Assembly: GCF_014218295.1 (NCBI RefSeq)
Contig: NZ_AP023287.1
Span: 1,240,001 to 1,304,000, forward strand
Direction of reading: 5' to 3'
From: Mycolicibacterium litorale
Lineage (GTDB): Bacteria; Actinomycetota; Actinomycetes; Mycobacteriales; Mycobacteriaceae
Length of the DNA: 64,000 bases
Below, piece by piece: positions 8,297-9,964 of this stretch. A program made the translations under genes and the position numbers. Numbering within the stretch: position 1 is the first letter of the stretch; every line of letters starts with the position of its first letter. The notes below the pieces were generated by a model that was not told the DNA's origin, did no database searches, and was given only the letters and a program-made list of their open reading frames with translations.

Positions 8297-8647
8297 ATGA
8301 ACGGGACGTGGAAGAAGCTCGCGCTCGGTATGGTGGCGGCCCTGGTCGGGCTGATCGGGATCGCGGTCGCGCCGGCCAGTGCGCAAGACCGCAACGTGTT
8401 GATCATCAACGAAACGCGGCACACGATCGTGGAGTTCTATGCCTCCAATATCGGCCGCGACACGTGGGAGGAGGACATCCTCGGCGAGGACGTGCTGGCG
8501 GTCGGCCAGTCGATCAACATCAACATCGACGACGGCACCGAAGCGTGCCTGTACGACTTCAGAGTGGTGTTCGACGACGGATCGGATCTGGTGCGTAACC
8601 GTATCGACGTGTGCACCATCGGCACCTACCGGTACACGCAGGAGTGA
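8297..8647 (+). CDS. small secreted protein, unknown function
   Basis: 116 residues with a clear Sec signal peptide: MNGTWKK, a hydrophobic core about residues 8-24, and likely cleavage after APASA near residue 29. The mature part of about 87 residues is acidic and beta-rich, with only two cysteines (EACLYDF and DVCTIG) that could form one disulfide once exported. A fair ribosome site GAAAGG (8283-8288) precedes ATG 8297. I do not recognise the family. It stands alone between the groEL1 terminator and the aroG leader. Confidence 0.75.
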   Translation: MNGTWKKLALGMVAALVGLIGIAVAPASAQDRNVLIINETRHTIVEFYASNIGRDTWEEDILGEDVLAVGQSININIDDGTEACLYDFRVVFDDGSDLVRNRIDVCTIGTYRYTQE

Positions 8648-8709
8648 GCACGGCATTCGGGGCAGGATCGCGTGACGGCACCGATTTCCGTCGCCCCGGC
8701 CACCCGTTG

Positions 8710-8715
8710 TACGAT
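8710..8715 (+). promoter_or_regulatory. -10 promoter element for the aroG leader
   Basis: TACGAT fits the TANNNT -10 consensus and ends seven bases before GTG 8723. That is the normal distance from -10 to the first transcribed base in mycobacteria, so transcription probably starts on the GTG itself and the leader peptide would be translated from a leaderless RNA. No Shine-Dalgarno sequence is present before 8723, in agreement. Confidence 0.6.
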
Positions 8716-8722
8716 CGGCCGC

Positions 8723-8797
8723 GTGACCATCGGTGTGCGTGCCTGCTATTGGCGCTTTATCAAGGCTCCGGGCGGAGCCGATAAAGCGCGCAACTAG
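8723..8797 (+). CDS. aromatic-amino-acid leader peptide (attenuator ORF)
   Basis: A 24-codon ORF, GTG 8723 to TAG 8795-8797, reading MTIGVRACYWRFIK and then APGGADKARN. The run Cys-Tyr-Trp-Arg-Phe places codons for all three aromatic end products within four codons (TAT 8747, TGG 8750, TTT 8756). It lies directly upstream of a DAHP synthase, the first enzyme of aromatic synthesis, and overlaps the 5' arm of a hairpin, which are the features of ribosome-mediated attenuation leaders. A comparable leader (aroR before aroF) is described in Corynebacterium glutamicum as I recall. Too short for ordinary gene calling. Confidence 0.85.
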   Translation: MTIGVRACYWRFIKAPGGADKARN

Positions 8798-8845
8798 AGC
8801 ACGCATCCACCCGGAGCCCAGGCAGTGACCATCAGGTCGCTGCCT
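8736..8845 (+). promoter_or_regulatory. ribosome-mediated attenuator upstream of aroG
   Basis: Several RNA pairings are visible. Hairpin A: GCGCTTTATC (8752-8761) with GATAAAGCGC (8780-8789), containing an inner GGCTCC/GGAGCC stem (8764-8769 with 8774-8779); its 5' arm carries the Trp, Arg and Phe codons. An outer stem TGCGTGC (8736-8742) with GCACGCA (8799-8805). A competing pairing GGCTCCGGG (8764-8772) with CCCGGAGCC (8810-8818). A terminator-like hairpin AGGCAGTGACC (8820-8830) with GGTCGCTGCCT (8835-8845), then TTTCGT. A ribosome stalled on aromatic codons would melt hairpin A. The exact order of switching is inference. Confidence 0.75.
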
Positions 8846-8905
8846 TTCGTCATTCAAGGGCGCCGGACCTCCACGTTGGTGCCCACACCAGAAAGGCACC
8901 CGAAC

Positions 8906-9964
8906 GTGACATCCGCCCAGCTGACCACCGCGCCCGCGACCTCGGACCGACGCGTCCGCAGATTCAGCGAGATCCCCAGCCCGCACGACGTGCGCGCCGA
9001 GTTCCCGCTGGGCGCGCGCCGCGCCGGGCGGGTGGCCCGCGACCGCGACGAGATCGCTGACATCCTCGCCGGCCGCGACGATCGACTGCTCGTCGTGGTC
9101 GGCCCGTGCTCGGTCCACGATCCCGCCGCGGCACTGGATTACGCCAGCCGACTGGCTCGGGTCACCGACGAACTGAGCGACCGCCTCAGGATCGTGATGC
9201 GCGTGTACTTCGAGAAACCGCGGACCACGATCGGGTGGAAGGGCCTGATCAACGACCCCGACATGGACGGCACGTTCGACGTGGCTCGCGGTCTGCGGAT
9301 CGCGCGGCAACTGTTGCTCGACGTCATCGACATCGGCCTGCCGGTCGGGTGTGAATTCCTCGAGCCGACCAGCCCGCAGTACATCGCCGACGCCGTCGCC
9401 TGGGGTGCCATCGGCGCCCGCACCACCGAATCGCAGGTGCACCGCCAGCTCGCGTCGGGCCTGTCCATGCCCGTCGGTTTCAAGAACGGCACCGACGGCA
9501 ACATCCAGGTGGCTGTCGACGGGGTGAAAGCCGCTGCCGCACAACATGTCTTCTTCGGCATGGACGATCTGGGCCGGGGTGCGGTGGTGAGCACCGAAGG
9601 CAACGAGGACTGTCACGTCATCCTGCGCGGCGGCACCGACGGGCCCAATTACGATGCCGAGGCGGTGACCGCCACCGCGGCGAAACTGGCCGCCGCCGGG
9701 CTGCCGGGCCGGGTCGTGATCGACTGCAGCCACGCCAATTCCGGCAAGGACCACGTTCGCCAGGCGGCCGTCGCCGAGGAGGTGGCCCGGCTGGTGCGCG
9801 ACGGGCTTCCGGTCAGCGGCGTGATGCTGGAGAGCTTCCTGGTCGCCGGCGCCCAAGCTCCCGACGCGCAGCCGTTGACCTACGGGCAATCGGTGACCGA
9901 CAAATGCATGGACTGGGCGACAACGGATTCCGTGTTGCGGGAGCTCGCGCGGCGCTCCGGCTAG
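8906..9964 (+). CDS. aroG: 3-deoxy-7-phosphoheptulonate (DAHP) synthase, class I
   Basis: Condenses phosphoenolpyruvate and erythrose 4-phosphate in the first step of the shikimate pathway. At 352 residues it is the AroF/G/H (class I) type, not the class II enzyme that is the well-known DAHP synthase of M. tuberculosis. Motifs: VVGPCSVHD (metal-ligand Cys near residue 61), FEKPRTTIGWKG, INDPDMDGTF, GARTTESQVHRQ, GFKNGTDG, ILRGGTDGPNY, DCSHANS and MLESFLVAG. Start GTG 8906 has AGAAAGG upstream; an in-frame GTG at 8825 lies inside the leader terminator hairpin and is rejected. Preceded by an aromatic leader-peptide attenuator. Symbol is by family, subtype not certain. Confidence 0.93.
   Translation: MTSAQLTTAPATSDRRVRRFSEIPSPHDVRAEFPLGARRAGRVARDRDEIADILAGRDDRLLVVVGPCSVHDPAAALDYASRLARVTDELSDRLRIVMRVYFEKPRTTIGWKGLINDPDMDGTFDVARGLRIARQLLLDVIDIGLPVGCEFLEPTSPQYIADAVAWGAIGARTTESQVHRQLASGLSMPVGFKNGTDGNIQVAVDGVKAAAAQHVFFGMDDLGRGAVVSTEGNEDCHVILRGGTDGPNYDAEAVTATAAKLAAAGLPGRVVIDCSHANSGKDHVRQAAVAEEVARLVRDGLPVSGVMLESFLVAGAQAPDAQPLTYGQSVTDKCMDWATTDSVLRELARRSG

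Follow-up and report, generated by a model that had tools for sequence, protein, structure and literature searches.

The first shikimate step in mycobacteria is usually discussed as a matter of allosteric feedback. A class I DAHP synthase gene of Mycolicibacterium litorale, located in the 64,000-nt stretch of DNA analysed here (in the following, the window), raises the question whether the transcript itself takes part in the control, and if so, by which mechanism. For the DNA directly upstream of the gene, the original prediction was a leaderless leader peptide followed by an attenuator that senses all aromatic amino acids together. Based on a comparison of related sequences, we find the element to be real and conserved, and very probably a ribosome-mediated aromatic attenuator.

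The leader and its RNA in the window

The analysis refers to the following features.

8710-8715, forward strand: -10 box TACGAT, read directly; seven nucleotides before the start codon, which suggests a leaderless transcript
8723-8797, forward strand: leader peptide ORF VTIGVRACYWRFIKAPGGADKARN with GTG start, 24 codons and stop TAG (8795-8797); a counterpart precedes 103/103 orthologues of the genus
8747-8758, forward strand: sensor codons TAT TGG CGC TTT (Tyr-Trp-Arg-Phe); Tyr kept in 101/103, Trp in 102/103, Arg in 102/103, Phe in 103/103
8752-8761, forward strand: S1, the 5' arm of P1; pairs with S3' (8780-8789) and overlaps the sensor codons
8764-8775, forward strand: S2 GGCTCCGGGCGG; partner of either S3 (8774-8779) or S4 (8807-8818)
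8774-8789, forward strand: S3 (8774-8779, partner of S2) and S3' (8780-8789, partner of S1); S2:S3 is without covariation support
8807-8819, forward strand: S4 CCACCCGGAGCCC; pairs with S2 or alternatively with S6
8820-8854, forward strand: intrinsic-terminator-like hairpin (8820-8845, 11 pairs) and T-rich tail, from pairing and covariation
8858-8866, forward strand: S6 GGGCGCCGG, beyond the terminator; second partner of S4 according to a duplex test
8878-8884, forward strand: S7 GGTGCCC; can pair with S6 or S8
8890-8900, forward strand: likely Shine-Dalgarno site AGAAAGG (8890-8896) and S8 GGCACC (8895-8900), read directly
8906-9964, forward strand: aroG, class I DAHP synthase, likely GTG start at 8906; PF00793 (E 7.9e-89) and TIGR00034 (aroFGH)

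A direct reading of the sequence agrees with the predicted GTG start at 8723, its 24 codons and the seven bases between TACGAT and the start. The leader also contains the codons TGC TAT TGG CGC TTT (8744-8758), i.e., the Cys-Tyr-Trp-Arg-Phe run that had been proposed, but the Cys lies outside the conserved motif (TGC precedes Tyr in 2/103 leaders of the genus). Downstream, both family models identify the expected class I DAHP synthase. The upstream neighbours in the window are an apparent groES, groEL1 and a small secreted protein, all named by eye from their ORFs. A further GTG (8825) within the terminator hairpin shares the aroG reading frame with no stop in between (window 8825-8905), such that automatic annotation may place the start of aroG 27 codons too early.

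With regard to structure, the RNA from 8723 to 8910 is predicted to fold at -98.8 kcal/mol compared to -65.9 kcal/mol (sd 4.6) for shuffled versions (z -7.1; 0/200 shuffles). The proposed 10-bp stem over the sensor codons (P1, 8752-8761/8780-8789) pairs perfectly and encloses an inner 6-bp stem (8764-8769/8774-8779) that was absent from the earlier list, as were all features from the terminator to aroG. The competing 9-bp pairing (8764-8772/8810-8818) is likewise perfect and a conserved alternative, but S2:S4 ends at 8818 and the terminator begins at 8820, i.e., they have no bases in common. The terminator hairpin (8820-8845) comprises 11 pairs, one of them T-G, and is followed by TTCGTCATT.

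Comparison of window positions 8600-9000 with Rfam yielded no match at E≤5, and the leaders of 12 related loci gave none either. The two leader peptides compared with NCBIfam and Pfam (from the window and from Streptomyces) were also without match.

Conservation of sensor codons and helices

A lack of conserved codons and stems across orthologues had been set beforehand as the outcome that would refute the original prediction, and both are clearly conserved. The enzyme was detected in 104 of the 297 genus genomes searched. Upstream DNA was taken for 103 of these (30 loci and 73 regions), while the remaining match (G173) starts at a contig end and was left out. The leader element, with end-product codons clustered in a short ORF, is found upstream of 103/103 orthologues examined. 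A strict TA[CT]TGG[CA]G search recovers the peptide in 99/103 loci; the other 4 have the element with one sensor codon altered (YRRF, YWLF, HWRF, MWRF). Three aromatics fall within six codons in 100/103 leaders and two in the other 3.

Codon usage of the leader differs from that of the gene. Among the 103 leaders, Tyr is encoded by TAT in 97 and by TAC in 4, Trp by TGG in 102, Arg by CGC in 102 and Phe by TTT in 103. In aroG itself, counted for 27 species after 3 of 30 had been set aside due to an in-frame stop within the stretch, TTT accounts for 0/245 Phe codons and TAT for 7/132 Tyr codons. That is, the leader uses codons that are shunned in the gene (TTT 103/103, TAT 97/101).

Two natural variants alter the leader more strongly. 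In G077, TAG follows immediately after Ile and the entire hairpin is still present. In G154 (L170), a deletion joins S2 to S4, with S3 and the leader stop gone, and would be expected to lock the S2:S4 state. As a separate observation, G231 has, besides its full class I DAHP synthase match, a partial one (G231:C1:465476-465958, residues 2-162) some 540 nt further upstream.

At family level, the enzyme was found in 212/251 genomes (26/31 genera), and we examined the upstream DNA of 40 members hand-picked from 23 other genera. The leader rule comprised a TA...T box, 5-9 nt, a start codon and at least three aromatics in seven residues. All 40 sampled relatives have a leader, 35 by the rule and 5 by eye, of which L226 is the weakest with Tyr as its sole aromatic. 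On named contigs, the element is present in Williamsia, Gordonia, Tsukamurella, Dietzia, Streptomyces, Catellatospora, Puerhibacterium, Isoptericola and Glycomyces, and a sister form (YFWFS or YWFS) in Rhodococcus, Nocardia, Amycolatopsis and Antrihabitans. Among the best 80 of more matches, 24/32 actinobacterial loci show a leader; none was found within about 500 nt in two Nocardiopsis, four bifidobacterial, the Gryllotalpicola and one MAG locus. Tyr, Trp and Phe occur within six codons in 165/172 collected leaders, of which 46 came from the aromatics-requiring rule and 18 from the sensor motif. The order and number of the aromatic codons differ (YWRF, YFWF, FYF, YPYF). Type-B leaders (YFWFSRPAPGGS) occur in Rhodococcus, Nocardia, Amycolatopsis and their kin (L013, L027-L029, L031, L038, L039, L041, L047, L229-L242).

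As a clean negative control for the leader rule, we used 452 other stretches of the window, none of which combines the leaderless geometry with at least three aromatics in seven residues. A set of 48 non-actinobacterial class I loci was intended as a negative control as well, but 8 of its 9 rule matches look like real attenuators of Betaproteobacteria, so that this set cannot serve as a clean control. An in-frame GTG or ATG follows the TA...T box after 6-8 nt in 121/121 element sequences (104 at 7 nt), compared to only 30/21,309 control positions of the window with the same geometry. This suggests a leaderless transcript with its start at or beside GTG 8723.

Covariation was assessed in 40 diverse sequences (alignment A1) against 500 shuffles, where each helix was also counted alone. 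Jointly, S2:S4 and the terminator are paired in 96.2% of cells, with both-side changes in 10 pairs and 44 cells (0/500 shuffles); slid versions come nowhere close, and most of the both-side cells stem from the terminator. Considered alone, the terminator is 99.8% paired (both-side changes in 7/11 pairs, 38 cells; 0/500 shuffles), S2:S4 is 93.1% paired (3/12 pairs, 6 cells; shuffles 0/500 for cells, 3/500 for pairs) and P1 is 87.2% paired (4/10 pairs, 11 cells; shuffles 0/500 for cells, 50/500 for pairs). P1, S2:S4 and the terminator covary between genera, which bears out both the proposed sensor stem and the proposed terminator-like hairpin before aroG. Examples of compensation in S2:S4 are GGCTCTGGGTGG/CCACCCAGAGCC in Catellatospora, AGGCTCCGGGA/TCCCGGAGCCT in Tsukamurella, GGCTCCGGATGG/TCATCCGGAGCC in genus g369 and GGGCTCCGGTTG/CAACCGGAGCCC in genus g238. 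S2:S3 is 98.3% paired with zero both-side changes (n=40); it hardly varies and is thus uninformative on covariation.

We also compiled a genus-centred set, in which 103 genus members and six named relatives give 106 distinct rows once identical ones are merged. Here, P1 is paired in 96.3% of cells and S4:S6 in 98.0%, the latter being invariant. Since S2, S3, S4 and S6 are nearly invariant in the genus, within-genus counts are neutral for them. S4:S6 was also considered as a duplex against dinucleotide shuffles in 37 representatives with less than 80% identity, which results in a combined p of 2.7e-15 (16/37 with p≤0.05), where the combined value takes the representatives as independent and many of them share one genus. 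Long matched versions are found in Dietzia (GACACCCGG/CCGGGTGTC) and L191 (CTCACCCGG/CCGGGTGAG).

The hairpin-plus-T-tail rule holds for 127/149 type-A leaders and 0/149 shuffled ones. The gap between S4 and terminator is 0-4 nt in 40/40 sequences (42 picked, 2 dropped because S4 or the terminator was not recognised). By eye, we also considered an antiterminator made from the terminator's own arms (a partner of the 5' arm GGCAGTGACC; S3' AAAGCGCAGCG with the 3' arm CGCTGCCTTT). The S3'/3'-arm pairing was seen in only part of the genus, and this candidate was thus dropped.

Finally, a covariance model from 40 sequences was run on 296 genomes of the class (cut-off E≤0.001). It matched in 47/296 genomes, with 44 full-length matches, 43 of which precede a gene for DAHP synthase or chorismate mutase. 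That is, 33/44 precede a class I DAHP synthase (6 of the 33 were in the training set) and 10/44 a chorismate mutase, nine of these joined to a DAHP-synthase-like domain and one alone. A match in G881 (1-139; 26.5 bits) is without leader and looks spurious, and partial or antisense matches (G053, G862, G831, G766, G102, G829, G731) were not counted as members.

The chorismate mutase leaders (L279-L288) belong to nine loci of family f91 and one f93 genome, where the DAHP-synthase-like domain is short and divergent. Pfam finds CM_2 in 6/6 of the genes examined, with DAHP_synth_1 above the cut-off in 4, below it in 1 and none in 1 (L287); the other four genes were assigned by like sequence. Chorismate mutase leads to Phe and Tyr, not to Trp. 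The leader codons fit this branch: among the ten leaders (e.g., MTCRYAFIEPAPGGPVGG, VDRRYFGFTPPAPDEPVGAP), Phe is found in 10/10, Tyr in 6/10 and Trp in 0/10. DAHP synthase leaders carry Trp in 169/172 collected cases, but in only 14/25 of those found by the model outside the genus (partly the same genomes), where 11 are without Trp and in 3 more it lies solely outside the cluster (YPYF type, family f93). Given that the sequences are related, the Trp contrast between both groups is suggestive only.

Mechanism and competing explanations

To relate the helices to ribosome positions, ten sequences were folded with the bases beneath a stalled ribosome masked. In unmasked folds, S2 is part of S2:S3 in 8/10 sequences and already of S2:S4 in the other two. 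With the ribosome masked on Tyr or Trp, S2:S4 forms in 9/10. A ribosome masked on Phe covers S2, and full S2:S4 is found in 0/10. The terminator is retained in every masked or unmasked state computed.

We consider it highly likely that a ribosome on the leader senses charged aromatic tRNAs and thereby controls the class I DAHP synthase. Judging from the geometry, transcription would begin at or beside GTG 8723 and the leader would be translated without a Shine-Dalgarno site. When aromatic tRNAs are plentiful, the ribosome would reach the stop codon, and either P1 and S2:S3 form again or S3 is hidden beneath the ribosome. S2 would then be unavailable to S4, and the hairpin 8820-8845 would presumably end transcription. 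When Tyr-tRNA or Trp-tRNA is short, the ribosome would stall at 8747-8752, cover S1 and block P1. With S1 covered, S2 could pair with S4 right against the base of the terminator. Because starvation is expected to increase expression, S2:S4 most likely represents the permissive state. In transcripts that run past the terminator, a free S4 would pair with S6, while S4 held by S2 would leave S6 free, which might perhaps expose the Shine-Dalgarno site of aroG.

These considerations narrow the original prediction. Its leader ORF, hairpins and terminator are conserved, but the equal sensing of three amino acids is unsupported, since S2 would lie beneath a ribosome stalled on the Phe codon. Furthermore, S2:S4 has no base in common with the terminator, which persists in every computed fold; S2:S4 is thus not a textbook antiterminator. 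That is, a covarying sensor hairpin over the regulatory codons and a predicted intrinsic terminator before the structural gene (8820-8854) are both found, while no antiterminator that excludes the terminator through shared bases was seen in the 40 gap-measured sequences or the ten masked folds. The constant closeness of S4 and terminator suggests that S2:S4 acts either sterically within the exit channel or on a later step, via S6.

A tentative and less likely extension is a two-tier riboregulator with a leaderless three-codon sensor. Here, the stalled ribosome would let S2:S4 disable the abutting terminator sterically in the RNA exit channel rather than by common bases, while a free S4 would pair with S6 and shut the Shine-Dalgarno site of leaked transcripts. 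The layout would be reused branch-wise across Actinobacteria, i.e., with Tyr/Trp/Phe for DAHP synthase and Phe/Tyr without Trp for chorismate mutase. With S4 taken, the mean opening energy of the Shine-Dalgarno site changes from 7.6 to 6.2 kcal/mol (lower in 23 and higher in 8 of 37), where the script chose doubtful start codons in some genera (e.g., L007, L009, L190). Given the weak shift and the doubtful starts, we put little weight on a relay to the Shine-Dalgarno site.

Some observations run against the favoured explanation. Two of the ten sequences fold into S2:S4 even when unmasked, and S2:S3 shows no both-side change. A sensor codon is altered in 4/103 orthologues, and Trp is missing in 11/25 model-found leaders outside the genus. 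In addition, the available text of PMC11802643 reports that the C. glutamicum relative responds to Phe and not to Tyr.

Among the alternatives, a mainly translational control survives best, although we regard it as rather unlikely. It shares the tRNA-sensing core, but takes the terminator as constant and lets the leader ribosome set access to the Shine-Dalgarno site (within S7:S8) via S2:S4 versus S4:S6. The between-genus support of S4:S6, which spans the terminator (combined p 2.7e-15, 16/37), is in line with this, as is S7:S8, which is 89.9% paired in the 106 rows with both-side cells exceeding 200/200 shuffles. Also, only 1/23 type-B leaders (L236) satisfies the terminator rule, and 2/5 folded ones (L234, L235) pair part of the leader with the sequence immediately upstream of the Shine-Dalgarno site. 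On the other hand, the predicted opening of that site barely shifts, S6:S7 (91.2% paired in the 106 rows) has no more both-side changes than shuffles, and S4:S6 is weak (p>0.3) in L013, L192, L193 and L205. Moreover, a purely translational switch needs no T-tailed hairpin, which 127/149 type-A leaders have.

It is very improbable that the switch consists in ribosome arrest by the nascent peptide YWRFxxAPGGA, triggered by a free amino acid or metabolite instead of tRNA charging. The peptide is kept across many genera, and proline-glycine stretches are known to slow ribosomes. Yet APGGA is untranslated in G077 due to the stop after Ile, and it is gone or altered in the g238 leaders MRNWRFYFEWGSGR, MRMWRFYFSKAPEAETS and MSVQRFYFGGAPVGADDAAASSSR, all with RNA pairing kept (S2 and S4 in the latter three); in L225, another g238 genome, S2 is kept in a different reading frame. 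These cases rule out conservation of APGGA at the peptide level. Past the sensor codons, it is by all appearances the RNA rather than the peptide that is kept. The extreme choice of TTT and TAT as well as the varying order and number of aromatic codons also speak against arrest.

Hardly credible at all is a non-regulatory structured transcript that merely terminates upstream read-through and whose ORF is a chance reading: the never-varying letters (n=40) do lie mainly in S2, S4 and the terminator, but 121/121 sequences have the in-frame start after a -10 box, differing sequences retain the aromatic codons (three within six codons in 100/103, two in 3/103), and 43/44 full-length model matches precede DAHP synthase or chorismate mutase.

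Relation to known attenuators and significance

The original account of the aroR leader of the C. glutamicum aroF operon is reportedly that of Neshat et al. 2014. In the available text of two further papers, this leader carries Phe-Tyr-Phe (PMC4046766), is named AroR, and its operon answers limitation of Phe, not of Tyr (PMC11802643), such that a corynebacterial aroF leader is indeed known, as the original prediction stated. Like the proposed attenuator, aroR is an aromatic leader before a DAHP synthase gene with ribosome-mediated attenuation, as far as described in the accessible parts of both sources (PMC11802643, PMC4046766). In contrast to aroR, the element has Tyr-Trp-Arg-Phe including a Trp codon as well as conserved P1 and S4:S6. 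The leaders of the small-genome genus g238 (WRFYF, QRFYF) have the same Phe-Tyr-Phe as aroR and show an S2/S4/terminator layout; g238 is probably Corynebacterium.

The trpL and pheL leaders of E. coli likewise combine end-product codons, alternative hairpins and an intrinsic terminator (as also outlined in the accessible part of PMC11802643). By contrast, the element is leaderless by geometry and holds codons for three end products in one leader, and its alternative helix abuts the terminator instead of overlapping it, with a 3' strand that also pairs beyond the terminator.

Aromatic leaders (e.g., MTSRFAFFAFYFWFSVPGGREARL) were also observed in Burkholderiales and Xanthomonadales, 145-257 nt before a class I DAHP synthase (L035, L050, L062, L068, L070, L071, L073, L074, L075, L078, L079). 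They share with the element a start soon after a -10-like box, an aromatic-rich peptide and an S2 complementary to a terminator strand. Their terminator is CCGCCGG/CCGGCGG, followed by a run of 6-9 T. They differ from the element in being classical, i.e., a CCGGCGG copy of the 3' terminator arm within the leader competes for the 5' arm CCGCCGG. L035, L070 and L079 have a compensatory CTGGCGG/CCGCCAG form, and L068 has TTGGCGG.

The novelty that the original prediction attached to a leaderless leader peptide does not hold. According to the available text of PMC8079986, eight leader peptides are listed for S. lividans, most of them leaderless and none for DAHP synthase, and no typical terminator is reported for leuL1. 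Leaderless polycysteine attenuators of mycobacteria are in print (Canestrari et al. 2020, cited in the accessible part of PMC13236596), as are candidate uORFs of cysteine type (PMC4633059, in part). They resemble the element in that a short leaderless ORF with many codons for the regulated amino acid precedes its biosynthetic genes, but the amino acid is cysteine, and a 2005 survey of Actinobacteria, as far as its available text goes, reported no conserved terminator hairpin for them (PMC1262725). The same text describes the actinobacterial LEU element of leuA, which also ties leader codons to RNA structure including the Shine-Dalgarno box, but differs by a predicted pseudoknot and by leucine. 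Transcription attenuation is in print for ilvB1NC of M. tuberculosis (PMC13236596, in part), and the uORF section available for M. abscessus includes leuA, ilvB and nirA among those named, not the DAHP synthase gene (PMC4974804).

In the literature searched (titles and abstract openings, with few subscription journals covered), we found no account of the element outside Corynebacterium, in agreement with the original prediction, which knew of no described mycobacterial counterpart. The element is a variant of known attenuation, with an abutting helix and a second partner beyond the terminator.

The element adds a conserved, probable RNA switch in Actinobacteria where the 2005 survey, in its available text, reported no conserved RNA structures before phenylalanine and tyrosine operons (PMC1262725). 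The covariance model and the natural variants, i.e., altered sensor codons, the S2-S4 fusion and the stop after the sensor codons, accompany it. Together with DAHP synthase and chorismate mutase leaders with and without Trp, these variants make the stall-codon specificity and a possible effect of the abutting helix on the terminator testable. In strains for the production of aromatic compounds, the element may serve as a control element that can be modified.
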